From positions 88,501 through 152,500 of the forward strand of contig CAJHZI010000742.1 in NCBI GenBank assembly GCA_905160935.1: 64,000 nucleotides of DNA, in the 5' to 3' direction. Position 1 is the first letter of the stretch. Each line of letters begins with the position of its first letter. Position numbers and translations under genes: made by a program. The notes beneath the pieces are model-generated. The model was not told the origin of the DNA. It saw only the letters and a list, made by a program, of their open reading frames with translations, and did not search any database. The DNA is from Enchytraeus crypticus. Taxonomy: Eukaryota > Annelida > Clitellata > Enchytraeida > Enchytraeidae. This document shows, piece by piece, positions 13,099 to 63,115 of this stretch.

Positions 13099-16000
13099 AT
13101 GACGGAAGAAACCCCTAGAAGGAAATCCCCAGAAATCACTTGCATCGAGCTACAGGAGGATGCCGAAACGAACGTTAATTCCACCTCTAAGAGACGCCGA
13201 TGTTGTATATGTTGCTCTCCTTCAACTCCTCAAATTAAGAGTCCAAGGTTTAAAAATAAGATCGAAGAAAATTCAGATCTCGAAGGTGCTGGTTCGATTA
13301 CAGAACCGGAAGAAAGGAGTTGCGGAGGAATCCGTACCTCCTGCAGGATTATATCGTCATGGATACTCTCTGCACCGTGTATGCTGGTCATCATCCTTGC
13401 CTACCTCGTGATGGGAGCCTTTCTGTTCAGCATGACGGAGGCTCAGAATGAGCTGGAGGAACGAAAGACGGCTGCCAGTCTGGCCACGAAGGCTTCAGCG
13501 TATCTGTGGCGACTTCGATCTACCACATCACCCGACCAGCCAGGTCGAACTGAAGAGAAACAGTGAGTCATTTCATATTTGTATTTAATAACTAACTACT
13601 CAGTTACAGACTTAAGGGTCAAGCCCTTTCAAGCTAATTTAAACAAGACTGGTGCGTTTTATTAACTGGTAGTACTGGGTCGATAGATTAGCATTTTCCT
13701 ATAATAATTTGTTGCTTTTATCTGCTTACTTTAAGTTTGATATTCCCATTAATTTAAGTGCAGTTTAACTGAAGTTAAACAAGGCCATACCCTTGTTGAG
13801 CCCTTACACTACTAATATAATCAAATCTAGACTGATTGCACTGATCTAGACTGATTGTACTGATCTAGATTGATTGTACTGATCTAGGCTGATTGTACTA
13901 ATCTAGACTGATTGTACTGATCTAGGCTGATTGTACTAATCTAGACTGATTGTACTGATCTAGGCTGATTGTACTGATCTAGACTGATTGCACTGATCTA
14001 GGCTGATTGTACTGATCTAGGCTGATTGTACTAATCTAGACTGATTGTACGGATCTAGGCTGATTGTACTGATCTAGACTGATTGCACTGATCTAGGCTG
14101 ATTGTACTAATCTAGATTGATTGTACTGATCTAGGCTGATTGCACTGATCTAGACTGATTGCACTGATCTAGACTGATTGTACTGATCTAGGCTGATTGT
14201 ACTGATCTAGGCTGATTGTACTAATCTAGACTGATTGTACTGATCTAGGCTGATTGCACTGATCTAGACTGATTGCACTGATCTAGACTGATTGTACTGA
14301 TCTAGGCTGATTGTACTAATCTAGACTGATTTTGTACTGATCTAGACTGATTTGTACTGATCTAGACTGATTATATTGGTGATTGTATTTAGGGAGCTAT
14401 TTCAATGTTTCTTCATAACTTTTTCGAATGTTCTAGACTAACCTGTTAGTGATTAAGATTTACTTCTTAATCATTTTGACTAAATGATTTAAATTATTTT
14501 TCATTTCCAACTAGATTACATTGCTCAGTAATATATTTAATATTCATTGTCATTCATAAACAATACAGAATTAAGCTATTTAGTAAAGAAATGATTTTTA
14601 TTCCTTATTGATCTAATTTTGTTTTAAACTTCTAAACGATTAGAAAATCTATTACTAGCATTTTATTCTACTATTTTCTTGTAATGTGATTTTTCTATTC
14701 ATAAATGATTTCTTCATTGATCAGAAATCTGCTTGTTATAATTTTAGCATTCGTTCATAAGTTTCCTTAAAAGTTCATAAGTTTAGCATTCGTTAATGAA
14801 ATAATTGTGTCGTTCCATCAATAATCCAGTAATTTATATCCATCAATCAGATATTAAGTAACTTTGCCTATCATTTATTAAAAAGAAACACATTTTAGTA
14901 AAATATTTAGTAATGAAATTATTTAGTTTACCATTCAGTAACTAAGTAATTTTTGTTTATTATTCAATAATGATATAGGTCAACCGTGCAATAAGTAAGT
15001 ACCTTCTTCGACCTTTCAATGATGATATAATGTTACAATTCTCTATACTGCCGATATGATTTTATTTCACAACAATAGCTCAGTGTTCGACTCCACTGTA
15101 ACTCGACTGATCTCTGAGGTAGTCCTGCAAGATAGGATCCGGTTAAGATCATTCCGTGTTCAGGACAATCTCTATGACGTCATGTACTCTTCTCAGAGTG
15201 ACGTCATCAACAGGCTTGAGGCCAGGGTCACAACCTGGTCATTTACTGGATCACTTCTCTATTCGACGTCACTAATAACCACAGTGGGTATGGACACACA
15301 CACACACACACACATATGCACACACACACATATGCACACACATACACACACACACACATATACACACACACATTAATAACCACAGTCGGTATATGGACAC
15401 ACACACTACACACACTGGTATACACACTAGTATACACACACTCACACGCATGTGTGTAATATGTACTTTTACTTTTTCCATTGTTGTGCATGCTTATCAA
15501 TGTTTGCACGGATATTTGCTTTCGTTTGATTTTTTGTATGAATTTGTTTGCTACTGTGCTAGTATTGAACATTTACTTGTATGTTGTTCTGATGAAGTGA
15601 AATGAATTAAATCTATACGTGTATGTGTGTATGTGTGTGTATACATGTACAGTATATATTTTCTGCTTGTGTTAACTCCTTATTTAATTGGATCGATCCA
15701 AAAATACAAATGAAAGTACTACAGAAAATGACATTTTAACGATGCAATCTGTTCAAGCTTATTACATATTTCATCCTATAAAGGTATTGGCTCGAAATCA
15801 TTAGAAATCACCGATAATTGCTATCAACCTGAGAGATTTATTTATGAAGAGAAACTAGTACTACGATACTGTACCATGATTCTGTTAGGGTATCATGGTA
15901 GAGCTTTTAAAAGCATCGTCTACAACTATCCAATTAACTTTAATTTCAATTTAAACAATTGCAATATCATAATGCATATAGTTTATTCAAACAATTGTTT

Positions 16001-18501
16001 AACCAACTCAATGATAGAGGATATATTATGTTGTAGGATACGGACGTATAACCCCACACACAATTCTTGGAAGAACTATTTCCTTAATCTACGCCATTCT
16101 AGGAATTCCCCTGATGTTCTTTTATCTTCTGAAAGTAGGAAGACTATTGGGGAAACTATTCTGCGCATTTTATTGGTCGATATTTTGTGACGTCATTTGC
16201 TGTCAGAGCTGCAACCGCACACAGCAGCAGAAGATTGTAGCAGCTGACAGGCCTAGAAATTACTTAACCCTTGAAGTTCAGCAGCTGTCCAACATTCCAT
16301 ATAGGGGTGTGCAAGGAAATAGACTTCGTGCTCAATCTTTAGCTTACACAACTGTACCTGATAGATATTCCAATATGAGGAGACAAACTCTTGCCAGTAT
16401 GGGAGAGCCCGGAACACTTGGCTCTACTAGGAAATCCAGTGGATTGTTGGGAACAGTTTCAACGGACAATGGACGTAAGCTTCTATTGACGCAGAAGTCT
16501 CTAGATTTTGAAAGCGGTAAGAAAAATAAATACAAAACACCCAAATACAGTCGCAGTAAATCTGTATATGATGGCGAAGTAGCCGGTGCCAATGATGGGG
16601 CATCTCACATTTATGAACGACTACATGGAAGAATAACGAGCAAATCCGTCACGCCCGGAAATCCGGAGTTGCCTCAAAGAGTACTTTTGGGAGAGGAAGG
16701 AGGGGGGCCAGCTCCTGCGGGTAAATGGCGATTCCAAGCTGATAAAACTAATAAGGAATACGAGATTGGTTACCAGTACTTTACACCACATCGTATTAAA
16801 ACACAGAAAAGTTATCCAGGAACCCTCCAAACGCGAAAAGGTGAGTATTCGAAACTTACAAGTACAGATAATCGAGTAGTAGCGAAAGAATCCGGTGGTG
16901 ATGACTGGGAAGACTCTGGAATAAGGACTTTACCAACGAGAGGTCAAAGAGCAGAAGTACAGCGTCATCGAAAAAAATCACTACAAAGGCAGTATCGTAT
17001 CGAAGAGGAGGTTCCAACAAACATCGAGCCGTTAGACAAAGCTGGAGGAAAGATGGATAAAGCGGAGATTACTGTTGGACCCATGAGTTTTATTCCGGCG
17101 AATCCAACGGAGGTTGAATTAGGACGGATGCAAAATCTTCCTGGCACTTCCAAATCACTTCCTAGAAATTTTACCGCAAGGGATGATTCTACTAGCAGTG
17201 TTAATTATTCAAAGGAAATAGCAATGGGCTATAAAAAGGAAAAAGCGAAGAAATCCAACGCTGCAGATGCCAAAATTATATCACCTCTTGAAGAGGAGAA
17301 AGCTCTTCCAAAGATCCCTAAGGGTAGATATAGAAAGTCACCTAAGAGTCAGAGAAGATCAGCTGCAATGCAGAGAACAACTGCAGGGAGAAGAAAAGGA
17401 AAAGGAACAGGTTGTTTGATGTCGGCTGGAAGGAACTCGGATGATTCCTTTGTGACCGCAAGAAGCGCCAGCAGTTCCTCAACTTCCGAGGTCAGTGCCG
17501 CCTGTTCTGACGATGAAACTTGTAGATCACAAGGAGTTCAAAGTCACCCTTCGTCTCAGAAGATTAAGAAGGATTCTTTTAAACCTTCAAAGCGTTTTCA
17601 GGATGAAGATTCGCCAAATGTAAATGAACGCGATGAAGAGCACAAAATGTTTTCAAAAAGGAGAAAAGGAGAAGAGTCAAGCAAGAAAAAATTCCTTAAA
17701 ATAATTCCTATTAACGATCCTTCAAAATACTCAGACCGCAAAGAGAAGTTTGCTAGAAAAGGGATTCTTTATGATGACAGTATCGATATTTTTGGCAAGT
17801 CAAGAATCCGTCATAATTCATCTGATGTAGAAGAAGCAGAAGAAGAAGATGATGATGACGAGACTATAGAAGATCAAGTAAAGGCAGAACGTTCCACTGT
17901 GCCGGTTCTTGCCAGTGTGATAGTATTCCTCGGATATCTTTCCGCTGGAATGATTTTATTTGCCTTGTGGGAGAAACAGACATACTTCGAGTCGCTATAT
18001 TTCTGCCTAATCACTCTCACAACCATAGGCTACGGCGATATTGAACCGCGTCACCATCACGCGCAATCTGATGAGATTTTTAACAGCGACGAATCGCAGA
18101 AATTAACTTCAGGCCGGAGAAGGGCTGTCGACTACATTAACCCCGGAACTGATTCAAACAATGACCATAACCTGAGCTATAAGAGTAGTCGCAGCATTAG
18201 AGATACTGAGAGATATAACACGGGCGGTAAGATCATCAAAAGTGATACTGGCAGCGGTCCTGATGAATCTGAGGTTCGTAATCTAACTGGTTTATTTAAT
18301 ACTGGTCTGGGGGATAATGCCGTAAATGGGTTTACAAATGAGTTAGCAGAATCTGACGGACACCAAGTGGGAGATACTGCACACAGGATTGCTTACGTGG
18401 TCTGGATTATCATAGGACTGTCTGTACTGGCTATGTGCCTCTGTTTAATATATGATCGGTTTACGAAGAACAAGTCAAAAGGTAAGGTTAAAAGAAAGTA
18501 G
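13099..18501 (+). CDS. Two-pore-domain potassium (K2P) channel, 3 exons, about 1045 aa
   Basis: Subunit of a dimeric background K+ channel in the plasma membrane. Exons are 13099-13562, 15079-15287 and 16037-18501. Donors are CA|GTGAGT and GTGG|GTATGG, acceptors are AATAG| and TTGTAG|, and the junction phases agree (3138 nt including the TAG stop). Residues 92-113 form TM1. Residues 156-205 match the extracellular cap region. The first pore is WSFTGSLLYSTSLITTVGYG-like, with filter TTVGYG at 222-227 split by intron 2. TM2 is about 234-262, TM3 about 845-868, second filter TTIGYGD 886-892, TM4 about 1009-1030, and the tail is about 15 basic residues. The TM2-TM3 cytoplasmic loop is about 580 residues, basic and Ser-rich with an acidic patch before TM3. 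The P2-TM4 linker is about 116 residues with NLS and NLT sequons. K2P proteins are usually 300-500 aa. The N-terminus has a Cys cluster (RRRCCICC, about 32-39) that might be palmitoylated (inference). The long loop recalls TRESK, but the subfamily is not certain. Confidence 0.93.
13826..14372 (+). repeat. 19-bp minisatellite in K2P intron 1
   Basis: About 28 units of CTAGACTGATTGTACTGAT, in two main variants (AGACTG and AGGCTG; TACTGATC and GCACTGATC) that alternate in blocks. It sits 264 bp past the exon 1 donor and does not reach a splice site. Confidence 0.95.
15297..15440 (+). repeat. (CA)n tract with a duplicated exon 2 donor region, K2P intron 2
   Basis: The (CA)n run starts 9 bp after the exon 2 donor. 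At 15374-15403 a second copy of the exon end and donor appears (TAATAACCACAGTCGGTATA against TAATAACCACAGTGGGTATG at 15273), followed again by TGGACACACA. See findings. Confidence 0.9.
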
Positions 18502-20334: not shown

Positions 20335-20692
20335 TCAGCCGACTTTAGGCATTCCGGATTTTTCCACCACCTGACGTGGAGATAGCGTCCCTCCATCCCT
20401 ATCCTCATCCCTACTCGAATGGAACCCTCCCTCCGCCAATCCCGCCGTCCCACCCGCTCCACTATCCTTCTTATCTTTCCACTTCCCCTCGGCAGATCTA
20501 ACAACTATTCCGGTGTCGTCATCTTCCGTCGTGTCCTTGCGATCCATGAGAGACTTTGAGGTAGGATTCTTCCGGTCAGCCTCGGCGGAGTAATAGGCCA
20601 TCGCCTTCTGCCTCTTGGCCTCGTCCTCTCGAATCCCTTCGTTCCTGTAGTAGTAATCAAGCATCGGGCGTGCATCTGTTTGAGTCTGGGTT
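20335..20692 (-). CDS. Guanylyl cyclase exon 26: charged C-terminal tail and stop
   Basis: Encodes residues 1167-1285 after the cyclase domain, ending in TGA at 20335-20337. Acceptor CACAG|A was chosen over the next AG because it keeps phase with exon 25 (AG|GTAGGA). The start reads [19 protein letters not shown]. The rest is rich in D, E, K, R, S and G, with no recognised domain. Vertebrate NPR-A and NPR-B end soon after the cyclase, while several invertebrate receptor cyclases have long tails. No PDZ-ligand or CAAX-type ending is seen (last residues SGMPKVG). Confidence 0.85.
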
Positions 20693-21562
20693 CTGTGTGA
20701 GTGTGGTCAGATTGAACAATAGTGGTTGTGTACAGTGCAAACAAGTTTATCATTTCATTTTAAAGCAATTTCATAAAAATACGATTGGTTGCTAGTGAGA
20801 ATTGTACATGCAGTACATTTATAAACAGCTGTTACTGTAATTTTCTGTCTCTTCTAGTTCAACGAATAATGTAGAAAAATAAAATAATTATCAGATCAAG
20901 CTTACGTTCTCTCTTTCTCTCTCTCTCCCTCCCCTCTCTCCCTATCTCTAATGTTCTGCCTAGTAGCAGGTCAAAGTTTCATATTCCACTCACATGCTGC
21001 ATTCACACTCCTTAAAGAGGACTCCATCGATTAACAAGTTATTCTCTTCACACTTTTACGTATAGCTTGGAAATAATATGGCTCGGGGTAGTTTTCCGTT
21101 GTCTACATCAGTCCTTGCACAGTCGCCTCTTACCATGCGTGCAGTTACGGTTGGTCCATTCTTCAGTTGAACACAGCAAGGGATTAAGATTAAGATAACT
21201 GTATTGCTTAAGATAATGCAAAAGAAATGTTGCTCCTACCTGTCAAAAGCCGGCAGCGGCTTTTCGAATCCTCTCTTACCGTGGAGCCAATAGGTTGTCT
21301 GGAATCCCTTTCCCTAAAATTTATTCAATGAAATAGCGTAATAATAATCGTATCTGTAAACATGTAGAAAACTCGTAATATATATATATTTTCTAGGATC
21401 GTTCAAAATATAAAATCAACAAAAAATAAACTAAGAAAATTATAAGCTTAAGAAAATTCTGCCATCTCATTTTCGGTGTACGAGCGATAGACCACATTTT
21501 AATTTTACCGCTAACTAGCCCCCAGAGTATAGGGTATAGACCAATCATGGACCTCTGAATAT

Positions 21563-21615
<53 letters not shown>

Positions 21616-24600
21616 TACACCCAGACCAAACTGTTAGAGAAGTGTGCTGAAAAGTAAGGTCCTAATCAAAACGCGTCCGGTGATCAATAAATGGTCACTA
21701 TAGATAGGGTATGTTCCCTACGGTGGGAAAAATTAGCTAAAGTATTTTACAAATCATCTTAGTATTCCGAAATAATCCAGGACATTAGCTATCAAGATAA
21801 CATCAAGGCTTTCAAGGGCATCAACTCTATATCCAATCACAACGTCACTTCTTTCAAAATTTTTATAGCCTAATGGTTGAGCCTGTAGCATTTTAGCTTT
21901 CCTCCCTCAGATCACTAGGTGCATAATTCAAATCCAGTTCTCGCCCCTTCACTGACCTACTTTCGAGGCAGCTGACGCTTAACTAGATCTTAGCTTTTAT
22001 ACCATAAATTGGTCAAGTCTATCGATATGATTTTCCATTGCCTTAGTCAGTATCTGTAATAGTCAATTCTTATTTTACAGAACATGTTTCTTTTGCTCTA
22101 ATCTTAACTTTTCAACCTCTGACTCCGAAATAACGCATAACGACAATATCATACCTTGATATTAGTCTCTCCTCGCTTCGTCATCAGATAGCCGTTGTAG
22201 TTGGCGGTGAGCAGCTCGTAGATTGACTTGCTGGCGTGTATATGTAGCGCTGAAATAGTGAAAATAACGGTATTTGTTTCATGACTTTATTCAGAGTTGC
22301 TCTAAAGAACCTAATTATAGGAAAAGGTTTATTCGTATTTACGAGCCTTAGAAAAACTCCAGGATTTGATTTCATTATGACTAATTTCCAATCTTCGAGG
22401 TCACAGACTCTGCTAATACCTCGTATGGCGAAACTGCCGATAAATTTCTCTTTATGTTTTTATATTCTAGAATAATAACATACGTCTTCCACTAGACTCG
22501 AGTGCCTGAGCCATATTCACCGTGTCTCCAAACAAACAGTAGCGAGGCATCACATTACCCACCACCCCTGCTACCACAGGTCCAGAATGTAGACCTAGTA
22601 CAACAGATATACCGTAGTGTAATACAATACAATTCTAGTTACATTATAGTGTAATGAAATACAAGTCTAGTTACAACAGATATAGCGTAGTATAATGCAA
22701 TACAAATCTAGTTACAACAAAATATACCGTAGTATAATGCAATACAACTCTAGTTACAACAAAATGCAAGGCAGTTTATTGCAACTGGTAGGTTTAATGC
22801 AATGAGCTGCAGCCAATGAGCTGAATGTTTTTTCTGACTTTTTAGGCCTTAGTGTTTCGTTGCCTTTTTCGACACGTGCAATCAGTGGTTGATATATTTT
22901 TTCAGCAACCAGAAAAAAACACAGGTTATAATTCAGATCCAGAGATACCTTTAGTAATTCACAAGAGATATATAAACGACTAGAGCAGTTAAGGAATTGA
23001 AAGCACGCAATCACTAACTAGTAATCACAAGTCGAAATTTGAACTTTTACCCATTTTTATTTAAATTGTTAATTTGATTAAAAACTATACAAAGAGATAA
23101 TTATACATGTATACTACGATTGTTAGGACTGAAAAGATCATACGGAATTTCTTTTTAATTTCCTCTGTCCCAGCTTCAAAATACTTGCGATATTGGTATT
23201 CAGCACCATTTATCGTCCATTGTTAATCCTAACTTGTCATCATGGTGGTAATACTTATCCTGAGCGACCGATACCTAATTAAATCAGAGACGCCTACAAG
23301 AGCTGGTAAAGCTAAAGCTACGATTAACGTCAGTTTCCTCACTCGAAAGCGATGTCAGTGACGGGCGAGCCAAGGATTTGAACCCCGCACATACTGATCC
23401 GCGGTCGAGTATCTTATCGACGTAGCCACTGGCTCCAGCTATGCTTTAACCCAGTAACTGATTGATATTCTACGCGGCTCATTACCAATGCGTAGCTGCA
23501 GCTGCTGATCTGGACGGTGTCGTATACGGAATGAGGTCACGACGCTAAGTAGGTCAAGAGACACGTCAGCCACCTCTGATGCGTGTTTGCTACCGTTCCT
23601 CTGAGGCACCCCGCTGACCACCAGATAGGCGTCCCCTATCGTCTCCACCTGTCTCATATATACATTACTTTTAAAATTCAATAGGAAAAATTAGCAATAT
23701 TTCCAATTATCAATATCAATCAATCAATAAGAATATAACGTCCGGTTCCTCGCCATAAGGCAATTTCAGGGACGTCTCTGCAGACTCTACACAAACATGC
23801 GCCAAAGCACCACACGATGACGACTGAGTACACAGAGACCACAAGAGGGAGCGAGATCAAAACAGTGTAAGTCCACGTTCCGAGGTAAGCGGGTCAGAAT
23901 TTAGACCTATAGGGGGAAGAGATGGGTTTTAGCTTGCCAAGAAAAGTACCGATACAATTACAAAATCTCAGATCTTCAGGCAGAGAGTTCCATATTGTCG
24001 GAGCATAAAATATGAAAGAGCGTTTGCAATAATTAAATTAATTGGTTAAATTAGAAAATTAGAAAATAGCTGTCTAGAAGAGCAGTACATTGGATGATTA
24101 TAAACTTAATGGTTTTGTTAATTAGAAAAATAATGATGCATTGAAATATCGAAAAAAACATAAATTAAATTCAACGTCGTTGTCTAACATTCCACCAAAT
24201 ATTCATTGCTAGATAATAAGATATGGAATCACTATCAGATATCAATAATATCAAAGTAATTTAGTTATATAGCTATTAATTACTGAACAGCCAGGCACAA
24301 TGTCAGTTGAATCACTTGAAAAAGAATGTTGCAAGTTCGAATGAAGAAATGACGACACAATGTAAAACGAATTCGCTATTCAAATACAGAACTTATCTTG
24401 TGAATTATTGGCCTCATTATTTGCATTTCAAAAATGCTATAGTAATAAAAGGTAACAAATAAATAAGGCAATTAAGGAATAATAGTAATAGTCAATCAGT
24501 TAATCAAACTATTAATCACTCATAAAATTAATCCGAGTATCCAGCTTATAGATTCAGATTTTTCGTGCATGCATGTTTGCCCATAATTATAGAGAGAACT

Positions 24601-27600
24601 TCTCGATTATGTGAAATCAGCAACAAAGCAATATATGTTATAATGACCATTAACACAAAGCAGTAACATTTGAAAACAATCAAAGGCAGTCAGAAATAAA
24701 GTACTATTTTAACTCAATTTACAAATTCCTACATTGTGTGGCACTTCATGTCATAGTCAATGAGCCCTTAACTGACAGCATAGTTATCTTTTAAGAATAG
24801 CATAGAATCCAACATTACATGTACATGTGTATGGCCTTAAACAAGCATCTGCGCTTCCACACCCAGTGTGCCGTTATGTTATTAATCTCTTATGCCAGAT
24901 TCTTCATCTAACAGTATGGTATTTCTAAAACTGAACAAAACCGTTTATCATTTAAAAAATGGAATACTTAAAGACTACATTAAATACTTCAGTATTTCAT
25001 TTAATGAAATCCTTAAAGAATCGTTATCTGTATTTTTAACAGAATTTGTTATAGTAGTTGACATTTAACAAAGTTTTCGTATTGGTTAGGGCGTAAGATC
25101 TTTTCATTGCAATGGAAGATCATCATCATCATCATCATCATCTTCCCTTTGTTCCCAGTTTAACTAGGGTCGGGCAATGGAATGAAAATGAATGAATGAA
25201 TGAATGCAATGAAAGATCGAAAGATGATAAATATTGCAATTGGCAAAACGCGATAAACAGTAGTAGAGAGATATAAATTAAGAGTAATAGACTGAGATAG
25301 AAAGAGAGAGATAGAGAGAGAGAGAGAGGAGAGTGATAAGTTTAAAAATGTAAACACACCTTGTACACGTCATACTTGGCGATAATGTCATCAAAACATG
25401 AGTAGAGATCGTTCAGAAACTCGACAATCTAAACCAAAAATTAATTAGCACAAGTGCTCGATTAACAGCAACAACAACAATCTTTTTCATTATTCGAACT
25501 TTCTCATTTATTTATATTGCAAGTTAGTTTTACAATAATAGTAATTTACAAACATACTTAACTAGCAAATAAACAGATAGGCAATAATAGTAATAATAAT
25601 AACACACATCATAGTTAAACGATCAACTACGTCGATATCTATCACTTCAATACCACATGTTAAATCCGTTAGGCAATTTATTCAATTTAACGCGTGACCA
25701 GTCATGTGAATGTCAGAGATTTTATTCTCAGATCAGCGCAGCTGGGAATCGAACTCACTAGAGTTAAATTTACCTCAGGGTCTGTCATTTAAAACTCTAT
25801 GACGCAAACTGTACACCCCTAACTACTACGCTATTGAGAGATTAAAAAAGAATTCACTTCTTTATTAACGAAGAAAGTTTCCATAAATGAGCCCGCCCCC
25901 TAATGTTGGAGCTTATAAGTTAGATAAAAATTAAATGCATAACTCTTCTATTTCGCAAAAGCATATGATTATTGTGATTGTAAATGCGATTGTGAACTTT
26001 AATTTAAGAAGCTCAAATGTTTCCAAGAGTTTTATCTGGACTTAGAGCGTTCGTGTATTTAATTAAACTAATTGCTAAAATAGTTAAAAAGCTAAAGCTA
26101 AGATTAACGTCAGTTTCCTCGCTCGAAAGCGATGTCAGTGACGGGCTCAAGCCCTGGATTTTAACCCCACACATACTAATCCGCGGTCGAGCATCTTACC
26201 GACGTCGCCCCTGGCTCCAGCCAGTCAATATCAATGTCCAATAGAAATCGTTTTATAATAGCTCTCAGCGCCTACCTGCATAGGACTGCTGTCACTGGCG
26301 ATTGTTGTGAATCCCACAATGTCTGAGAAGTAAATGGATGCCTGATCATACTGCTCGGGCTGGACAAAACTGCCTGCCTTCAATCTCTCAGCAACAATTC
26401 TAGAACAACAACAATTAGATAATTGATGACAATATCGATAGTTGATGACAATATCGAGCATTATTCAGACAAATCCATGCCGGTGTCAAAAAAGACGGTC
26501 CAAAATAGTGCAAATTCGAAAATCTAGAAAAAAAATCAAAGATCATCATCATCTTCCCTAAAATCCCAGAAAAACCAGTTCAAAGGTAAAATGATAAAAT
26601 CAGTCATATAGCTATTAATCAGTAAATCAATCATTCAATATCTCAATCAAATCCTGCAATGAAATCAATCATTCGATGTTGAAATCAAATCCTATAACGT
26701 TCTGATGAGGTATAGCCATCTTCCCGAATTTCTAATCTCTCAGAAATGGTCCTGCAATTTGTCAACAAATCATTTATCTTCAACAACTAAACTTCTACAT
26801 ATTATTAGTCTGGTTGAATATAGTTACCGTTATTCATTTCGCCTTCACCCTACGATCATTACGATTACTATTCAATCAATTCATTACATGTTCCATACAG
26901 AGTTTAGAAATCAATATAAAACAACTTGGGTGGGGTTTCATCAATGCTGATGAAATAAATAGCCTTGAAGCATTTTTAAGACGCGCAGAAAGGGCAGGTT
27001 TCTACAACAAAAAGCAACTTTTTTGAGAATATCTGCTTATCAGATGATAGTAAACTATTTAGGGCAGTCTGTTACAATCCTGACCATTTGATGGCTCCAC
27101 TTTTAGCCCCACTAAACCAACATTCATATCAAACCCGAAGAAACGTTGCTAAAGGAAGCTATGCAATACCAACTAAGCGTAGCTTCTTGATTGATAAAAA
27201 CTTTGTATCCCGCATGATGCTAAGTGATGCTAATAAACTATACCTAATTTAATATTGGTTTAAAATGCATTGTTTGTATTAGCATTACTAGGACACTATC
27301 TCTCGTATAGTGTTTATTGTAATTATGTTCGTATGTTCCATTTCGTATGTTCGTATGTTACCTATCTGGTTTTGTCAGATTGTCTTGAAATAAACGAATA
27401 TACTGTATATATTCTCTGTCTTACAGCGTAACTGAGAACAACCTCATGGGCAGCTATTTCGTAGATATATGCTTTGTTATATATATATCTTAACCATTTT
27501 GGTGAAATGCTTTCTCTATCTCTCTCCATTACTCACTTACTCGCTCACACTCGTTCACTCTATCATTATTTCACTCATTCATTCATACACTCACTCACTC

Positions 27601-46994: not shown

Positions 46995-47045
<51 letters not shown>

Positions 47046-49818
47046 TACAGGCACATTCACAGACTCACGCACTGGTACGCACACAGGCACACGCATAGAT
47101 ACAGGCACAGACATAAATACAGGCACGCGTACAGACACATACACACAGGTAGGCGCACAGACAGGCGCACAGACCCACACAGAATTTATCCGAAGTTTTA
47201 CCACGCACCTTACGAATGGCCCTACTGGCGTCACCCCACAGCAGATAGTTGGAGGCGAGTACCACCAGGCGAGTCCACTTGTACATTCGAAACACCTCCA
47301 GTAAGAAGTTACCCATCTTAGTGAAGGGCCCGAGACTGCGCCCTAGGGTTGTGTAGATCGTTTTGTCTCCGAAATCTGGATCAGTAGCCACCCACGACAC
47401 GATGGGTTTGTTCCACACAGAGGCCAGCTCCGCCACAGGTCTGCAAGCTGTCCATTAAATAACAGAGGAATTTGTGTCGTGAGGGCAAATATATAAAAAC
47501 ATCATCATTAGTGATATACGAGTTTTGCTACTGATATACCTAGGTACTAATAAAAACTGGCTCAAGTTATTATATATAATACTAGTAGACAATATTATTA
47601 TTGTTAATTGTATTATCATAAACAATTCAGTCTAAATAGCTTTTACTAGGTCTTCGTAACATATACGTGTTTGTGATACATGGTATATCTTTAAAGTTCA
47701 ATTATGGCATTCTACAAGTAAAAGCTGGTAAAACTAATGTTAACGTCAGTTTCCTCACTCAAAAGCGATGTCAGTCACGGGCGAGCCCAGGATTTGAACT
47801 CCGCACACACTGATCGACGGTTGAATATCTTAACGACATCACCACTGGCTCCAGCTAGTAAGTATATGTTCCAACAAAGCAAGTAACCAACAAAAGAATA
47901 TATTCATAGTTATACTGAGCTATACTGAGAAAGTGAGTATTAAACCAGCAGCCTCCAGTAGAAGAGAAAAGAACGTTAACCACTAGACTATGTAATGGAA
48001 GAACTAGTAGACCTACCCGCCGAGCAGGCAGGTCCAATGAAGCCGTCCACCTTGTCCCTCAGCATCATCGTTACCGCTGCTCCTGCCGCCGTCTTGCTGT
48101 TACACCCAGTGTCCATCGTGATCATGCTGAGACAACAACAACATGGTGATCATGCTGTGACAACAACAACATCGTTAGCAGGATGTGACAACAACAACAT
48201 CGTTATCATGCTGTTACAATAACAACAAGGTTATATTGCTGTAATAACAACAACATCGTTATCATGCTGTGACAACAACAACATCGTTATCATACTGTGA
48301 CACAATCGAAGCGCAAACGTACAGTTAATACTTACCCGTATGGGTACGGCCAAATGCATAAGTATTAGGGTGGCATGGTACACCATTGCAAATTCACTAT
48401 CTTTCTCTCCCACTCTCACTCTGTTTTCTCTCTCCCTCTCTTTCTCTCTCTCTGCTTCTCAATCTATCCATCTATCTCCAATATTCTGACAAGTAGCATT
48501 TCCAAATAATTTAGTCCTTTACACGGAGTCAGATTTCACATTTCATAAAAAGTAATACTGTGATCAAGAAGCTAATGCCTTCAGAAAGGGTTATTCCTCA
48601 TTCATCCTAATGTAGCCTACATTTTTGGAAAAGTTATGCTTCAAATGTAGTTTCCCAGTGCCGTCTCCAATTATTGCATAGTAGCCTCTTACGATATCTG
48701 CAGCTTATGTACGATGAGTTATTCAGTGACCCGGACGCTACACGGAAACGTTTGCTACAAATAAAAACATTAAGCACTACAGTATTTATACCTGATTTAA
48801 GCATATACTCCACATTGGCTGGAGCCAGTGGCGAAGTCGGTAAGATACTCGACCGCGGATCAGATGATGCGGGGTTCAAATCCTGGGCTCGCCCGTCAAT
48901 GATATCGCCTTCGAGTGAAGAAACTGGCGCTAACCTTAGTTTTACCAGGTTTACATTAGAAAATAGGTCAGTATCTAAAACCAAACTCTTCGCTCTCAAA
49001 AACTCTTTTTTCAAACGTTTTTCTAACTCTTTTTAAAGCCAAACTCTTTGCTACTGAATTTTCATTTTCCATCATTAAAGGAATGAAACTTAGAAAAATG
49101 ATTTTTCGCAATTTGATTATCGTAACATGCGGGATTGATTTTCTTAAATTTATCTCCAGTAGGCCTTCCCTTTTTCAGCAGTAAGCAGAGTAAAAACATA
49201 ACCAACACATCTCAATTAATCTAACAGCTACAAAGCAACAAAGTAATATTTACTATACTCCGTTACGCTTAAAAATAGCAATACTATTTATCATAAGGAC
49301 AAATATTAAATAAAAGGAATAAACTACCAAAATATTATATACAATACTAATATTAAAATACTTATATTATCATGAACAGCTGTTGCTGCAGGGATATCAA
49401 GTAAGACGTCTTGGATAAAAAGTGTCAAAGTTATTAGCCTTCAAAGTAGTTTCAGTTATTGTAGACCACCCTGTATTAAAACTAGACTACTCAACTTCCC
49501 TGACCTGAAGTTAAACCTAGAGCTAAGGATGGGATCTCGTTCGATGTCCTCAAATGCCAGAGAGATGGCGCTAGCGCTCGTCAGCGCGCTGATCTCATCG
49601 AAAGACTCTTTCCATGGAGCCAGGAACCCGATCTTAAAGTGAAGCCGACCCACCAGGGGCAGCCCCTCGAGACCGTCTCGCCCCATGGCTACCTTGGTCT
49701 CCTCGGCGGCAGTGCAGTAGCGACAGAACCACAAGGAGGCTGCGATAACGACAGTCAGAGAGAGGAGGGTTGGGCGACTGCCGTAGTTCAGTTTTAGAGA
49801 CAAGCGTCTCGGAGGCAT
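20335..49818 (-). CDS. Receptor guanylyl cyclase (natriuretic-peptide-receptor type), 26 exons, 1285 aa
   Basis: Single-pass membrane receptor that would make cGMP from GTP after binding an extracellular peptide. Exons in coding order: 49818-49505, 48126-48017, 47447-47209, 46025-45929, 45466-45270, 44404-44306, 42817-42661, 41482-41355, 40672-40555, 37076-36992, 36057-35946, 35437-35175, 33776-33638, 33026-32922, 31234-31073, 30724-30652, 29798-29649, 29065-28888, 27915-27778, 26399-26276, 25428-25360, 23648-23486, 22594-22484, 22249-22155, 21313-21240, 20692-20335. All introns are GT..AG, all phases match, and the total is 3858 nt. Domain order: signal peptide, ANF-receptor ligand domain, TM about 491-512, Lys-rich segment, kinase-homology domain about 641-905, dimerisation helix 910-954, cyclase 956-1167, charged tail. 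The KHD is NPR-like (VAIK, HGN for HRD, DYG for DFG). The ATG at 49818 was chosen because a hydrophobic signal follows it. The acceptor of exon 7 (GGAG|ATGCGG) has a weak pyrimidine tract and is the least sure junction. Confidence 0.95.
20905..21185 (+). repeat. (CT)n tract and SINE family 4, cyclase intron 25
   Basis: (CT)n at 20908-20945 leads into AATGTTCTGCCTAGTAGCAG, the GAGGACTCCATCGATTAACA block and CAGTCGCCTCTTACCATGCG. Several family 3 and 4 copies begin at a (CT)n run, so that run is probably the SINE end. Confidence 0.7.
21240..27915 (-). CDS. Guanylyl cyclase exons 19-25: dimerisation helix and class III cyclase domain
   Basis: Exon 19 encodes the coiled-coil hinge ([20 protein letters not shown]). 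The cyclase spans about 956-1167. Metal-binding Asp are present in FSDIVGFT (981) and [10 protein letters not shown] (1025). GTP-selectivity residues are present: Glu1021 in KVETIG and Cys1093 in PRYCLFGD. Asn1100 (VN) is kept, but the position of the transition-state Arg four residues on is Ala1104 ([12 protein letters not shown] instead of the usual GDTVNTASRMES). [10 protein letters not shown] near the end is canonical. The Ala codon is GCA at 22503-22505, deep inside exon 23, so it is not a splice-model error. The protein may have weak or no cyclase activity (inference). Confidence 0.93.
21560..21745 (-). mobile_element. (TA)n tract plus 3' end of a CR1/L2-like LINE
   Basis: (TA)n at 21570-21612. 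Then 21613-21740 matches the 3' untranslated part of the LINE at 52490-53390 (GTGTGCTGAAAAGTAAGGTC, GATCAATAAATGGTCA, CTACGGTGGGAAAA). Truncated so that no coding part remains. Confidence 0.6.
22596..22768. repeat. About 42-bp tandem array touching the exon 23 acceptor of the cyclase
   Basis: Four units of about 42 bp. On the minus strand each ends GTTGTAACTAG, a copy of the native acceptor GTTGTACTAG at 22595-22604. See findings. Confidence 0.8.
23305..23440 (-). repeat. tRNA-derived SINE, family 1, cyclase intron 22
   Basis: Full unit on the minus strand; ends about 45 bp from the donor of exon 22. B box GGTTCAAATCC is intact. Confidence 0.82.
23715..24035 (-). mobile_element. CR1/L2-like LINE 3' end, cyclase intron 21
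   Basis: The minus strand reads [13 protein letters not shown] ... TFLGKLK and a stop. This is the [16 protein letters not shown]-type end of L2/CR1 ORF2, as also seen at 52570-52700. About 200 bp of 3' untranslated sequence follow. Confidence 0.78.
24815..24895 (+). repeat. Short repeat shared with the 5S-SINE tail at 39200
   Basis: TTAAACAAGCATCTGCGCTT and CCCAGTGTGCCGTTATGTTA match 39207-39252. Confidence 0.65.
25085..25345. repeat. (CAT)n-tailed SINE family 6 scrap and (GA)n tract, cyclase intron 21
   Basis: (ATC)n at 25120-25142 then TTCCCAGTTTAACTAGGGTC, as at 40141 and 53470. (GAAT)n follows at 25185-25205, and (AGAG)n at 25300-25330 ends about 30 bp from the exon 21 donor. Confidence 0.65.
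25635..25840 (-). repeat. SINE family 5, cyclase intron 20
   Basis: Minus-strand copy with GAGTTCGATTCCCAGC as B box and TAGCGTAGTAGTTAGG as A box. Confidence 0.75.
26090..26222 (-). repeat. tRNA-derived SINE, family 1, cyclase intron 20
   Basis: Whole unit, ending 54 bp from the exon 20 donor. Confidence 0.8.
26445..26580. repeat. Repeat shared with 50025-50125
   Basis: Both have CAAATTCGAAAATCTAGAAAA-like text, TATTCAGACAAATC/TATTGAGACAAATC and GCCGGTG. The copy here runs into a (CAT)n-type TTCCCTAAAATCCCAG tail. Probably a LINE or SINE 3' region; family not identified. Confidence 0.55.
26926..27400 (+). mobile_element. LINE ORF2 C-terminus and 3' tail, cyclase intron 19
   Basis: Plus strand encodes [20 protein letters not shown] and, after one frame change near 27020, [20 protein letters not shown] then [14 protein letters not shown] and a stop at about 27250. 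This SLEAFLRR / DDKLF / NPHHPL / YNLR-type ending is typical of ORF2 ends in invertebrate non-LTR elements. 5'-truncated. Confidence 0.78.
27530..27775. repeat. (ATTC)n-type array next to the exon 19 donor
   Basis: About 240 bp of CATTCATTCACT-like repeats. The last unit ends only a few bases from the donor (27776-27777), so the array fills the first part of the intron. Confidence 0.9.
27921..28345. repeat. 38-40-bp minisatellite starting at the exon 19 acceptor
   Basis: About 10 units with GTTCATAGAGGTCACACAGT and GCAGAGATATAACAGC. It begins within about 6 bp of the acceptor at 27916. One unit near 28065 contains a small inverted copy (GGTCACCTCTGTGACC). Confidence 0.9.
28800..28872. repeat. 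(ATT)n microsatellite after the exon 18 donor
   Basis: Near-perfect TTA/ATT run about 15 bp past the donor at 28887. Confidence 0.9.
28888..33776 (-). CDS. Guanylyl cyclase exons 13-18: kinase-homology domain
   Basis: Residues 640-909. The glycine-rich start is [19 protein letters not shown] has the usual Lys (667), and [19 protein letters not shown] is the strongly conserved receptor-cyclase core. [15 protein letters not shown] precedes the catalytic-loop equivalent HGNLKSSNC (758 onward), where Asp of HRD is Asn, and ITDYGL replaces DFG, as in NPR-A and [13 protein letters not shown] is the APE-like motif and [13 protein letters not shown] the helix F region. [13 protein letters not shown] closes the domain. 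Family members are pseudokinases that relay ligand binding to the cyclase, and the substitutions fit that role. Exon 18 uses donor GGAAA|GTTTGT, chosen because it alone keeps phase with exon 19. Confidence 0.94.
29135..29278 (+). repeat. Diverged SINE family 1 copy, cyclase intron 17
   Basis: GAGCCAGTG start, GTGCTGGGTTCAGATAC B-box region and GCAGGAAACTGACGTTAT end in the plus orientation. Confidence 0.55.
29530..29640. repeat. (GACAGA)n tract next to the exon 17 donor
   Basis: Imperfect GAGAGACAGACAGA repeats ending about 10 bp from the donor. A (CATTTACATTTCAG)n run lies on the other side of the exon at 29830-29940. Confidence 0.85.
30500..30640. repeat. (AATC)n-type degenerate repeat next to the exon 16 donor
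   Basis: Repeats of the AATCAATCAGTC kind end about 10 bp before the donor at 30650-30651. Confidence 0.85.
30925..31062. repeat. (GAAT/GAAC)n tetranucleotide array next to the exon 15 donor
   Basis: GACCGATC units pass into AACGAACG and then AATGAATG; the array ends about 15 bp from the donor. Confidence 0.9.
31290..31455. repeat. 36-bp tandem repeat, cyclase intron 14
   Basis: Four to five units with CCATCAACTCCAGA and AATGAAGATC, about 55 bp upstream (in gene sense) of the exon 15 acceptor. Confidence 0.85.
31895..31995 (-). repeat. Truncated SINE family 1, cyclase intron 14
   Basis: Minus-strand copy that stops after CGCGGCCGAGTATC; the A-box end is missing. Confidence 0.72.
31996..32921. 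other. Intron 14 of the cyclase, unique-looking AT-rich sequence
   Basis: No exon, repeat or element recognised. Confidence 0.5.
34015..34325 (-). repeat. 5S rRNA-derived SINE, copy C
   Basis: Minus-strand copy of the family at 38966 and 51920. On the minus strand: CGCGGTTAGTACATTGTGGG, CGATCACTTTGGAAGACCGA, then a shared tail (TTCTTAAATTCGCGCTTTCT, CAACAAAAGGCAACGATTAC, GGAGGAAATAACGAAAAATA). Confidence 0.75.
34545..34685 (-). repeat. SINE family 3, cyclase intron 12
   Basis: Has GACCTGCCAGTAGGCAGTGC at the end and GATTTAAGGATCCACTCATA at the start. Confidence 0.75.
34975..35115 (-). repeat. SINE family 1, variant b, cyclase intron 12
   Basis: Variant with TTTCCAGTCTCGAAAGCATG and TTTGAACCCTGCACCTACAG; the same variant occurs at 43690 and 61360. 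Confidence 0.7.
35175..37076 (-). CDS. Guanylyl cyclase exons 10-12: transmembrane segment and Lys-rich juxtamembrane insert
   Basis: Exon 10 (36992-37076) encodes [20 protein letters not shown] and onward, a clear single membrane span at residues about 491-512, followed by YKYK. Its donor, CAA|GTACAA, is weak and runs straight into an AT-rich repeat. Exon 11 (35946-36057) has the family juxtamembrane motif [11 protein letters not shown]. Exon 12 (35175-35437) encodes 87 residues. The middle (about 573-612) is almost only K, D, E, S, G and Q, with QGKDK three times in tandem (15-nt DNA repeats near 35300-35344). The end is Ser/Gly-rich. The family normally has a short Ser/Thr phosphorylated region here; a 40-residue KDK stretch is not usual. 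Confidence 0.9.
35655..35910 (-). repeat. SINE family 2, full copy with tRNA-like head, cyclase intron 11
   Basis: On the minus strand it starts GGGGATATGGTGTAATGGTT (A box TGGTGTAATGG), then CCTGGGTTCAAAGCCCAGG (B box) and a body ending GTCTCGAAGACCGGACACCG. It lies 36 bp from the exon 11 donor. The anticodon arm does not fold as a normal tRNA, so I do not call it a tRNA gene. Confidence 0.82.
36775..36975. repeat. (TA)n-rich tract next to the exon 10 donor
   Basis: About 200 bp of TATATA with small interruptions, starting about 20 bp past the donor. It makes spurious Tyr/Ile ORFs. Confidence 0.9.
37725..37925 (+). repeat. SINE family 3, cyclase intron 9
   Basis: CCCACTGGCTGGTTCATGGT, CCTCCATTCATCTCTATTTT and GACCATTAGTGGACCTTCAA, a diverged plus-strand copy. 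Confidence 0.65.
38398..38962 (+). repeat. 51-bp minisatellite, cyclase intron 9
   Basis: About ten near-identical units (AAAGCTAATAAACGTAGTAT ... ACTAATACATATTGTCTAAT). The unit is a multiple of three, so one frame is open for 196 codons. It ends exactly where the 5S-SINE at 38966 starts. Confidence 0.95.
38966..39255 (+). repeat. 5S rRNA-derived SINE, copy A, cyclase intron 9
   Basis: Reads ATCGAAATTAAGTTGCATCG, CCTCGGTTAGCACTTTGTGG, then GTGACCACCTTGGAAGACCG, in the order of the 3' half of 5S rRNA (AAGCTAAGCA, CTGGTTAGTACTTGGATGGG, GACCGCCTGGGAATACCGGG). An unrelated body follows (TTCTTAAATCCGCGCCGGCT, CATCAAAAGGCAACGATTTC). Confidence 0.8.
39714..39890. repeat. 13-15-bp tandem repeat (TTGTACACAAAGTT)
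   Basis: About 12 units in cyclase intron 9. The unit carries the palindrome TTGTACAC/GTGTACAA in part. Confidence 0.9.
40139..40345 (+). repeat. SINE family 6, cyclase intron 9
   Basis: Starts at a short (CAT)n run, then GCAGTTTAATCACGGTCGGG, TGTAGCAATCTCTGGAGGGT, CTTACGTTGATTTAAATCTT and TACGACACGTGCAG. Matches 53470-53640. Confidence 0.7.
40394..40554. repeat. 27-bp array of the exon 9 donor region
   Basis: Six units. On the minus strand each reads GTAAGATATTACACATTGGA then TGGTAGG. The first is the native donor CAGG|GTAAGA at 40553-40554. See findings. Confidence 0.92.
40555..49818 (-). CDS. Guanylyl cyclase exons 1-9: signal peptide and extracellular ligand-binding domain
   Basis: Residues 1-487. 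A hydrophobic stretch at about 16-37 ([14 protein letters not shown] core) is the signal peptide, and KIGFLAPW follows as the start of the ANF-receptor fold. Family landmarks in order: MDTGCNSK and [15 protein letters not shown] (exons 2-3), [16 protein letters not shown] (exon 3), [13 protein letters not shown] and EEGRIVLVIAP (exons 4-5), [16 protein letters not shown] (exon 5), [20 protein letters not shown] (exon 7), [15 protein letters not shown] (exon 8) and [10 protein letters not shown] (exon 9). Exon 4 (45929-46025) encodes 32 codons and closes a gap that otherwise falls between AIRK and VLVIAP. Using it moves the exon 5 acceptor to 45466, which restores phase on both sides. The conserved Cys residues of the family are present. 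The ligand cannot be inferred. Confidence 0.92.
40742..40872. repeat. 27-bp tandem repeat (GATAACTTCATTAGTTAATC)
   Basis: Five units upstream (in gene sense) of the exon 9 acceptor at 40673, about 70 bp away; the acceptor itself is not in the unit. Confidence 0.85.
41490..42660. other. Cyclase intron 7; (GA)n and (CT)n tracts and a GATGATGCTGATGATGATTT duplication
   Basis: (GA)n at 42320-42335, (CT)n at 42450-42474, and two copies of the GATGATGCTGATGATGATTT motif between 42503 and 42560. Nothing else recognised. Confidence 0.6.
42820..43685. other. Cyclase intron 6, 5' flank of exon 7, nothing recognised
   Basis: Purine-rich AT sequence without a clear pyrimidine tract in front of exon 7. 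Confidence 0.5.
43685..43815 (-). repeat. SINE family 1, variant b, cyclase intron 6
   Basis: ACTTTCCAGTCTCAAAAGCA and AATTTAAACCATGCACTTAT, a diverged minus-strand copy. Confidence 0.6.
44097..44285. repeat. 26-27-bp tandem repeat after the exon 6 donor
   Basis: About seven imperfect units of CTAGATAACTGATAACACAG, ending about 20 bp from the donor at 44305. Confidence 0.85.
44515..44765. repeat. (CT)n microsatellite, cyclase intron 5
   Basis: About 250 bp of imperfect CTCTCT with CTTT interruptions, starting about 110 bp from the exon 6 acceptor. Confidence 0.9.
45060..45265. repeat. (ATTC)n array next to the exon 5 donor
   Basis: Imperfect ATTCATTC repeats up to within about 5-10 bp of the donor at 45268-45269. 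Same kind of array as at 27530-27775. Confidence 0.85.
45500..45625. repeat. (CT)n tract, cyclase intron 4
   Basis: Two CTCTCT blocks with a duplicated ATCTGTCTTTGTCTTT spacer. Lies 35 bp beyond the exon 5 acceptor. Confidence 0.9.
46008..46480. repeat. 48-bp minisatellite that overlaps exon 4 of the cyclase
   Basis: Ten units. The first unit includes 18 bp of exon 4 (AGTGATCGATACATTGGC on the plus strand), the acceptor CAG and 27 bp of intron. The others repeat all of this. See findings. Confidence 0.95.
46565..46955 (-). repeat. tRNA-headed SINE joined to SINE family 3, cyclase intron 3
   Basis: On the minus strand, ATGGCCGAATTGGTACCGCA and ACGTTCGAATTCCAGGCG are A- and B-box-like. 46700-46955 is family 3 (AATGACGACCCTGTCCAGTA, GAAGGCATAGGGGACCCA, GACCTGCCAGTGGGGAGTGC). 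Whether they are one element or two is open. Confidence 0.65.
46957..47190. repeat. (TA)n then (CACAGACAGG)-type repeat after the exon 3 donor
   Basis: (TA)n at 46998-47041; 47041-47185 has degenerate ACAGGCACAC / ACAGATACAG repeats, ending about 15 bp from the donor at 47207-47208. Confidence 0.88.
47715..47857 (-). repeat. tRNA-derived SINE, family 1, cyclase intron 2
   Basis: Whole unit on the minus strand. Confidence 0.8.
48113..48302. repeat. 28-bp minisatellite that overlaps exon 2 of the cyclase
   Basis: Six to seven units. The first holds 13-14 bp of exon 2 (CATCGTGATCATG on the plus strand), the acceptor CAG and a GTTGTTGTTGTC tract; the others repeat it with small changes. See findings. 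Confidence 0.9.
48420..48710 (+). repeat. (CT)n and SINE family 4, cyclase intron 1
   Basis: (CT)n at 48420-48455 then AATATTCTGACAAGTAGCAT, CTAATGTAGCCTACATTTTT and CATAGTAGCCTCTTACGATA. Confidence 0.7.
48818..48950 (+). repeat. tRNA-derived SINE, family 1, cyclase intron 1
   Basis: Best plus-strand copy: GGCTGGAGCCAGTGGCGAAG start, TCGACCGCGGATCAGATGAT, GGGGTTCAAATCCTGGGCTC (B box), ending ACCTTAGTTTTACCAG. Confidence 0.85.
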
Positions 49819-53390: not shown

Positions 53391-53469
53391 TAGTTGTGTG
53401 TATAATCTATAAATATAATCTATATACTATACTACATGTAATACTATACAAATGTATATACTATACTAT

Positions 53470-57974: not shown

Positions 57975-58017
<43 letters not shown>

Positions 58018-58272: not shown

Positions 58273-58755
58273 TAGCTATAATGGTAGCAATAATTAAATT
58301 CCAGTCTGACCAACTCTATCAGTACCTTTAAGATACAGAAACGGCCGTTAAAATTAGTTCTAAAACTCTATAGTATTTAGTTATATAGAAGAAACATGAT
58401 TTGACAGCACTATACGAGACATCTATCGTTGTGTTAATTCATAAGTTTTCCACACTTGAACATTAGTAATGCTAGGATCCAATAGCCCTTACGTACATAT
58501 CACTTGTGCACATGACTAAGTAACGATAGTGCACGTAAGCTTAACATCAGAGACTACTTGATAACAAAGCCCCATTGACTGAACGGCAAGACCGACCATG
58601 ACTAGAACATCCAATCCCATCAAAAGCATTATGCATTTTACGCCTAAAATCAAAAGAATAAAAAATGCCGTTCAGATGCTACTGATGCCTTATATTGCAT
58701 TCTCACTCCATCTCTCTCTCCGTCTCTCTTTCTCTCCGTCTCTTTCTCTCCGTCC

Positions 58756-58797
<42 letters not shown>

Positions 58798-60813: not shown

Positions 60814-62516
<1,703 letters not shown>

Positions 62517-62519
62517 CTG

Positions 62520-63115
62520 AATGGAGAAATAACAGCTGTGAACATATAATACAAGAGAGAAATAACAGCTGTGTACATATAATACAAGCAAGATATAACA
62601 GCTGTAAACATATAATACAAGAGAGAAATAACAGCTGTGAACCTTATAATACAAGAGAGAAATAACAGCTGTGTGCATATAATACAAGAGAGAAATAACA
62701 GCCGTGAACATATAATACAAGAGAGAAATAACAGCTGCGTACATATAATACAAGAGAGAAATAACGGCTGCGTACATATAATACAAGAGAGAAATAACGG
62801 CTGCGTACATATAATACAAGAGAGAAATAACAGCTGTGTGCATATAATACAAGAGAGATATGACAGCTGTGTGCACATATTACGAGAGAGAAATAACAGC
62901 TGTGTACATATAATACAAGAGAGAAATAAAAGCTGTGTGCATATAATATAATTGAGAAATAACAGCTGTGTACATATAATACAAGAGAGAAATGACAGCA
63001 ATGTACAAATAATACAAGAGAGAAATAACAGCTGTGAAACATATAATACAAGAGATATGACAGTTGTGTGCATAAAATACAAGAGAGATTTGACAGCAGT
63101 GTACAAAACACAGAG
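62520..63115. repeat. 33-bp minisatellite starting at an SH2-gene acceptor
   Basis: About 17 units (ACATATAATACAAGAGAGAA and ATAACAGCTGTGT). It begins about 3 bp from the acceptor at 62517-62518. The 33-bp unit is a multiple of three, which leaves several frames open on both strands (up to 242 codons). Confidence 0.95.

Follow-up and report, generated by a model that had tools for sequence, protein, structure and literature searches.

Genes and tandem arrays of the window

The stretch of DNA analyzed here, 64,000 nt long and referred to throughout as the window, holds three animal genes, encoding a K2P potassium channel, a receptor guanylate cyclase, and an SH2 adaptor, and the subject of this report is the set of tandem repeat arrays found at or beside the exon borders of these genes. 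Exon models were made by hand from the reading frame and GT/AG signals and were predicted without RNA, with the positions of the cyclase exon 3 and exon 5 acceptors corrected by frame. The cyclase models join into a single open frame of 1285 codons with the Pfam domains ANF_receptor, kinase, and Guanylate_cyc, and natriuretic peptide receptor 1 aligned to residues 113-537 of its product. Pfam likewise recognized Ion_trans_2 in the K2P gene and SH2 in the adaptor gene, whose product had the SH2 domains of SHP-2 as its best PDB sequence matches and which we take to be SHB-like. Together, the models yield 29 complete introns (29,200 nt, median 853 nt) and 59 borders, made up of 29 donors and 30 acceptors. 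The genes are as follows, with the basis of each model in parentheses.

13099..18501, + strand: K2P channel gene, 3 coding exons modelled (frame, Pfam)
20335..49818, - strand: receptor guanylate cyclase gene, 26 coding exons modelled (frame, Pfam, alignment)
60814..62516, - strand: SH2 adaptor gene, 3' part, last 3 exons modelled (frame, Pfam, PDB sequence matches)

Tandem Repeats Finder (TRF) returned 93 rows for the window, which merged into 57 arrays at score 50. Twenty of these arrays overlap a border or sit no more than 26 nt away from one, 11 on the donor side and 9 on the acceptor side. The original prediction, which was made from the sequence before this analysis, had placed arrays at eight or more intron borders and held that random placement would rarely hit borders so often. 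Both statements were borne out, and on a larger scale, since free random placement over the whole window, exons included, gave an expectation of 4.4 borders against the 20 of 59 seen (0 of 1000 placements). Most of the donor-side arrays, at cyclase exons 5, 6, 10, 15, 16, 17, 18, 19, and 21 (8-26 nt from the border), had been missed by that prediction. The acceptor of exon 5 was at first set 22 nt early, which left 9 nt between the border and a GA array; the corrected frame places this array 31 nt away, and it is therefore not among the 20.

The crowding was also seen in comparisons that keep each array within its intron or clear of the exon. Arrays clear of the exon were present at 16 of the 59 borders, against 1.4 expected by free placement (0 of 1000) and 1.9 under the other null. 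When arrays were shuffled, each inside its own intron, an array within 25 nt was expected at about 1.2 donors and 1.15 acceptors, compared to the 10 of 29 donors and 8 of 29 acceptors observed; none of 2000 shuffles matched either value at TRF score 50, and at scores of 30, 40, or 80, or with pooled placement, no more than 1 in 2000 did. Array coverage at 26-100 nt from the border was 35-39% past donors and 30-32% before acceptors. At 201-300 nt it was 5% and 15%, respectively, and at 301-500 nt it was 7% and 10%, with 7.7% in intergenic DNA. Bases no more than 200 nt away from a border make up 59.7% of the intronic array sequence, compared to 24.4% expected by chance (0 of 1000).

Splice-site copies and decoys

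Native junctions were compared with their neighboring arrays by ungapped comparison. According to the original prediction, the arrays had grown from splice sites, with units that copy the native site in five cases, but this describes a minority only. Four of the 20 border arrays span a border and repeat its splice site in register (cyclase exons 2, 4, and 9 and SH2 exon 2), the K2P exon 2 donor has a single copy, and the exon 23 array, the fifth of the proposed cases, shows a shifted likeness; the other 14 adjoin a border without copying its splice site. The four spanning arrays and the K2P array, each identified by TRF and junction comparison, are as follows.

48114..48330, - strand: 28-bp array spanning the cyclase exon 2 acceptor (exon start 48126)
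46006..46483, - strand: 48-bp array spanning the cyclase exon 4 acceptor (exon start 46025)
40393..40557, - strand: 27-bp array starting at the cyclase exon 9 donor (exon end 40555)
61625..61825, - strand: 69-bp array spanning the SH2 exon 2 acceptor (exon start 61641)
15289..15402, + strand: CA-rich array starting 1 nt past the K2P exon 2 donor (exon end 15287)

The comparison found the in-register decoys that had been described beside native sites. Six copies lie upstream of the exon 2 acceptor, spaced 28 nt apart (identity 0.71-0.93 across 15 intronic and 13 exonic nt), and eight lie upstream of the exon 4 acceptor, spaced 48-49 nt apart (identity 0.81-0.96 across 26 intronic and 21 exonic nt), with a ninth found in splice-site scoring. 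Downstream of the exon 9 donor there are five copies at 27-nt steps (identity 0.89-0.93), of which the exon side shares AGG only, while the SH2 exon 2 acceptor has two upstream copies at 69-nt steps (identity 0.88 and 0.94). The K2P exon 2 donor is duplicated once, as had been predicted, with the copy 101 nt downstream (border-equivalent 15388, identity 0.80) and beyond the CA array. At exon 23, a gap of 20 nt separates the array from the border, and the likeness of the array units to the acceptor is offset by one base (best ungapped identity 0.62). One-unit seeds thrown at random would give 0.97 spanning cases in the window, compared to the 4 seen (P 0.017). Spanning is thus only modestly in excess in the window, and the larger excess is that of arrays beside the border.

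Decoys were scored with a position matrix built from the window's own splice sites, each native site being left out in turn. The AG is kept in five of six copies at exon 2, which scored 5.5-9.4 against 10.0 for the native acceptor, in six of nine at exon 4 (3.3-7.5 against 6.7), and in both at SH2 exon 2 (6.6 and 6.9 against 6.9). All five copies at exon 9 keep the GT (5.3-8.3 against 8.3 for the native donor), and the K2P copy scored 4.5 against 7.0. Use of a copy would lead to a stop codon in all 21 window copies tested: 6 of 6 at exon 2 (one without AG), 7 of 7 tested at exon 4 (three without AG), 5 of 5 at exon 9, 2 of 2 at SH2 exon 2, and the single K2P copy. The natural inference from these frames is that the exon-adjacent splice site would be the one used, or that other products would be destroyed. 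In the exon 4 array, the AG is lost in the three copies nearest the native acceptor and kept in the six farther ones, which could be due to selection against near decoys and is taken as a lead only. Such selection was rejected as a general pattern because the exon 2 and SH2 arrays do not follow exon 4.

The remaining border arrays, including that of exon 23, are listed below. Those at exon 19 and at the first modelled SH2 exon, which had correctly been said to abut their acceptors, contain the intronic part without the native AG, and 15 AGs of its own were found in the SH2 array.

22615..22769, - strand: 21/42-bp array, 20 nt before the exon 23 acceptor (22594), shifted acceptor likeness (TRF, junction comparison)
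27926..28340, - strand: 39-bp array, 10 nt before the exon 19 acceptor (27915), intronic part only (TRF, junction comparison)
62524..63105, - strand: 33-bp array, 7 nt before the acceptor of the first modelled SH2 exon (62516), intronic part only
37095..37204, - strand: 58-bp array, 18 nt before the exon 10 acceptor (TRF, junction comparison)
26418..26457, - strand: 19-bp array, 18 nt before the exon 20 acceptor (TRF, junction comparison)
29820..29939, - strand: 6/20/40-bp array, 21 nt before the exon 17 acceptor (TRF)
45106..45257, - strand: GAAT-type array, 12 nt past the exon 5 donor (TRF)
44102..44283, - strand: 28-bp array, 22 nt past the exon 6 donor (TRF)
36780..36976, - strand: AT array, 15 nt past the exon 10 donor (TRF)
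30960..31058, - strand: CATT-type array, 14 nt past the exon 15 donor (TRF)
30544..30636, - strand: ATTG-type array, 15 nt past the exon 16 donor (TRF)
29570..29625, - strand: TGTC-type array, 23 nt past the exon 17 donor (TRF)
28807..28868, - strand: TAA array, 19 nt past the exon 18 donor (TRF)
27554..27769, - strand: TGAA-type array, 8 nt past the exon 19 donor (TRF)
25294..25333, - strand: TC array, 26 nt past the exon 21 donor (TRF)

Arrays in other genes, known precedents and the host lineage

Further genes were sampled from the genome (524,188,772 bases in 802 contigs). The myosin sample consisted of 66 of the 81 myosin-head matches of a family search, in 20 stretches of 10 kb with 132 sides, and the innexin sample of five multi-exon genes, chosen before arrays were seen, with 32 sides. 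Sides in both samples are the predicted ends of domain matches, some of those in innexins being domain ends and not exon borders, and an array was counted if it overlapped the match or lay within 45 nt of it. A count of arrays against shuffled positions elsewhere in the genome had been proposed with the original prediction, and its outcome is divided: the excess was found in myosins, was borderline in innexins, and did not reach significance in the paralogues of the cyclase.

Among myosins, 27 of the 132 match sides have an array, compared to 12.2 by free placement (0 of 1000); 13 of these arrays are clear of the match and 14 overlap it, and 12 are donor-side and 15 acceptor-side. Coverage near the matches was 18-25% at 26-150 nt and 10-16% beyond 200 nt. 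A null that bars overlap with matches (myosins 27 versus 7.9, 0 of 500; innexins 9 versus 5.0) was rejected because the observed count allowed overlap, and the myosin claim was halved when free placement replaced it. This asymmetry matters little in the window, where the non-overlapping arrays at 16 borders stand far above either expectation.

Seven myosin borders spanned by an array were checked, and all carry copies of the border. With the native site counted, there are 3, 5, 6, and 6 copies at the donors L003, L007, L015, and L018 and 3, 2, and 8 at the acceptors L005, L014, and L021 (7 spanning seeds versus 2.65 expected, P 0.019). At the four donors, a stop would follow use of a copy in 14 of 15 cases, the exception being one of three copies in L007. 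The myosin stretch L009, with a 108-bp unit, holds a further possible spanning case outside the seven.

In innexins, 9 of the 32 match sides have an array, compared to 5.4 by free placement (P 0.056) and 5.1 under the exon-avoiding null (P 0.045), and no array comes within 45 nt of the match ends in two innexin stretches whose match takes in the entire domain. Spanning is clear at L045 and weaker at L044, with one copy of the native junction, and at L046, where the exon head is copied and the acceptor is not; 1.18 spanning cases were expected, and P is 0.12 when all three are counted. Across the window, myosins, and innexins there are 14 spanning cases versus 4.8 expected (P 0.0005), picked by eye from array lists and including neighboring paralogues that are not fully independent. 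Outside the window, the excess is about twofold and consists mostly of arrays that overlap exon ends.

Among the guanylate-cyclase paralogues, a 132-bp unit repeated 2.7 times (L035:85-449) includes the counterpart of cyclase exon 21 three times, and a piece of the same counterpart is present twice in L036, 172 bp apart. The catalytic domain of this family has at least 170 matches in the genome (contigs C449, C158, C795, C617, C794, C454, C475, and others), and at least 88 cyclase-domain matches, in the central part of the model, are among those listed at E 2.4e-29 or better. The matches are apparently clustered on few contigs and suggest a large expansion of the family.

Border-spanning minisatellites are known from amphioxus, where they have been called mirages, and the kind of feature is therefore known in part. 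The accessible text of the two reports describes them in Adh3, the globins BflGb6 and BflGb9, PGBD5, and troponin C, with units of 10-72 bp (Adh3) and 150-160 bp (globins), and as leaving regular splicing undisturbed (PMC3087553, PMC3902484). The original prediction made no mention of this precedent. As in the mirages so described, the tandem unit in our spanning arrays includes the exon-intron border, and splice signals are intact in many units. This structure is present at cyclase exons 2, 4, and 9 (exon side AGG only), SH2 exon 2, and the seven myosin borders, as well as in innexins, clearly at L045 and more weakly at L044 and L046, while the remaining border arrays are border-adjacent only. 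Also as in mirages, both types of border are involved, with donors at exon 9, L003, L007, L015, and L018 and acceptors at exons 2 and 4, SH2 exon 2, L005, L014, and L021, and the AG or GT is kept in many but not all units. To judge from their structure, the spanning arrays are of the kind of the amphioxus mirages. Unlike the amphioxus cases, however, they occur in an annelid-like host and affect several unrelated genes, and most border arrays of the window adjoin the border without copying the site, which differs from mirages as the consulted text describes them.

Other systems are less similar. The metallothionein genes of earthworms share with our case an annelid host and intronic minisatellites, which are large, lie inside intron 1, and have units of about 180 bp on average; extra copies of exon 4, one of them inverted, are absent from the transcript, and border-spanning arrays are not described in the accessible parts of that report (PMC12783039). 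Human internal tandem repeats at exon-intron borders may yield new introns or activate cryptic sites, but that case concerns recent paralogues, and the text available makes no mention of arrays crowding at borders (PMC2812944). In Caenorhabditis elegans, according to the portion of the report consulted, minisatellites in introns that flank alternate exons form one repeat family and are a matter of alternative splicing (PMC4039745). Our literature search, which left most subscription papers uncovered and drew on some sources in part, found no report of arrays crowding exon borders outside amphioxus, the human repeats at borders set aside. As far as it shows, the annelid-like setting, the several unrelated genes, and the measured crowding of non-copying arrays in the window are new.

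The host genome contains 93 matches to innexins, 9 of which extend over the full family model, whereas lancelets have only one innexin according to the text consulted (PMC8769644). The mitochondrial contig C802 has the order nad3-nad2-cox1-trnN-cox2-(trnD)-(atp8)-trnY-(trnG)-cox3, in which bracketed genes were placed by eye. Pfam confirmed nad3, cox1, cox2, and cox3, plus a proton-pump NADH dehydrogenase subunit that is taken for nad2 from its size and place. Between cox1 and cox2 there is a tRNA with the anticodon loop CUGUUAA (GUU), and before cox3 there is another with GUA; the atp8 frame was not recognized by Pfam, and the presumed trnD stretch, whose ends were guessed, gave no cloverleaf on folding. 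The common mitochondrial order of annelids is cox1-N-cox2-D-atp8-Y-G-cox3. The gene order and the innexins point to an annelid host, and the innexin number and mitochondrial order rule out amphioxus or another cephalochordate. COX1-like fragments with stops (C361:258458-258736, C424, C796, and C373) are probably nuclear copies of mitochondrial DNA.

Given a chordate and an annelid-like host, exon borders may be favored places of tandem duplication in distant animals. If this is true, natural genes would allow a direct test of how a splice site is chosen from near-identical copies, exon ends may be misplaced when genes are predicted in such genomes, and new splice sites, perhaps introns as well, would have a source that can be measured. 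Array coverage as a function of distance from exon borders is a measure that can be applied to any annotated genome.

Origin of the border arrays

We favor, with moderate confidence, the explanation that the border arrays are by-products of ordinary tandem duplication and slippage at or beside borders and have no function of their own. What it has to account for in the window is crowding within about 200 nt of borders, copies in register, decoy scores close to native ones, and stops on use. A first duplication would occur between short direct repeats, one intronic and one in or near the exon; at exon 4, ATCACT is present in the intron flank and in the exon. Tolerance of the duplication would follow from the position of the copies on the intron side and from continued use of the exon-adjacent splice site, so that exon length is kept. 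Later unequal exchange or slippage would then lengthen the array on the intron side.

Several points weigh against this explanation. It offers no reason for the border preference itself, the putative direct repeats at unit ends are by-eye readings, and both the exon models and the match ends are predicted. The original prediction singled out the window for its arrays, and its P values are flattering for that reason. Spanning units alone are about three times the number expected by random seeding. Arrays clear of the match number 13 in myosins versus 5.9 by free placement (P 0.003) and 7.9 under the exon-avoiding null (P 0.042), and within 100 nt myosins show no excess over the latter (19 versus 17.0, P 0.33); in innexins, there are 6 versus 2.5 by free placement (P 0.032) and 5.0 under the exon-avoiding null (P 0.38). 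The guanylate-cyclase paralogues (20 stretches) have arrays at 3 of 50 borders versus 1.87 expected, which is not significant (P 0.28) and excludes the L035 donor, where the array overlaps the exon by more than 60 nt. Finally, at the L014 and L021 acceptors one of the three frames is open in 3 of 5 copies, and the frame after decoy use is ambiguous there.

On a broader reading, exon borders throughout the animals would be hot spots at which tandem arrays are born, owing to some property of the border such as nucleosome edges, breaks linked to transcription, or the step in base composition. We consider this doubtful, and our estimate was lowered slightly because the free-placement null left only a twofold excess outside the window. 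Two corollaries seem to us just as doubtful: that intron ends turn over faster than intron middles, with decoys constantly made and discarded, and that amphioxus mirages and annelid arrays are two views of one process.

Somewhat less probable still is that borders are passive refuges, with deep intronic arrays lost or broken up or once-short introns widened in the middle by insertions. This would fit the drop of deep intronic array coverage to the intergenic level in the window, as well as the avoidance of borders by dispersed repeats, as none of 17 intronic stretches of at least 40 bp comes as close as 25 nt to a donor or an acceptor (29 of each), with 17 being too few to expect any near borders by chance. 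Border arrays are not more decayed than other arrays, however (no difference in repeat identity, P 0.58), and they are somewhat longer (P 0.026), which favors birth at borders over long survival there. In addition, the introns that lack arrays are not short, seven of the eight measuring 508-1398 nt and the other one 234 nt, and the excess remains when arrays are collapsed to a short unit (13 of 34 in the nearest 5% versus 1.7 expected). Transposon tails were rejected as a source of the arrays because of the same absence of dispersed stretches within 25 nt of donors and acceptors, in a search that sees only elements repeated within the window and that covered the border side of the arrays.

It is unlikely that the arrays are kept by selection because they act in splicing, as enhancers or as spacers that define exons in AT-rich introns. 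They are located where splicing signals are and recur in other gene families, but they have no common unit sequence (TGAA, CATT, ATTG, TGTC, AT, TAA, TC, CA, and minisatellite units), which argues against a common splicing signal, and 8 of the 29 introns have no array at all. A split between the two border types was strong in the window, with 9 microsatellites and 2 minisatellites at donors and 1 and 8 at acceptors (Fisher 0.005). It was not repeated in myosins, in which microsatellites make up 1 of 12 donor-side and 5 of 15 acceptor-side arrays, and it was dropped as a local accident.

Slippage that starts from the acceptor's pyrimidine tract and extends in both directions, as the original prediction suggested, leaves the donor side unexplained, which holds 11 of the 20 window arrays and 12 of the 27 myosin arrays. 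The arrays at exon 19 and SH2 exon 1 do extend into the tract region, but acceptor-spanning units include 13-20 nt of exon as well as intron sequence from outside the tract, and we regard this origin as very improbable. Least credible of all is that the arrays mark the birth of introns by tandem duplication of exon pieces, as the accessible text proposes for amphioxus globins (PMC3087553), since most tested copies read with stops and none was seen as an exon, by frames only, even though some units carry an exon end together with a splice signal.

Other features of the window are recorded here in their own right. A dispersed element of about 75-150 bp occurs in 12 stretches (681-806, 3275-3401, 5839-5968, 10308-10435, 23298-23449, 26084-26231, 31889-31997, 47720-47869, 48813-48953, 54162-54236, 58147-58282, and 63195-63344). 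It contains GGTTCAAATCC, which we take to be like a tRNA B box, and is perhaps a short interspersed nuclear element. Minus-strand open frames at 52545-53426 resemble, by eye, the 3' part of the reverse transcriptase of a long interspersed nuclear element. Coding exon 12 of the cyclase has a 15-bp tandem repeat (35307-35353) that encodes GKDKQ-type repeats. The last exon of the K2P gene (16037-18501, a single exon of 2465 nt) includes a long charged stretch that separates the two pore domains, and such a stretch inside one exon is unusual among K2P channels.

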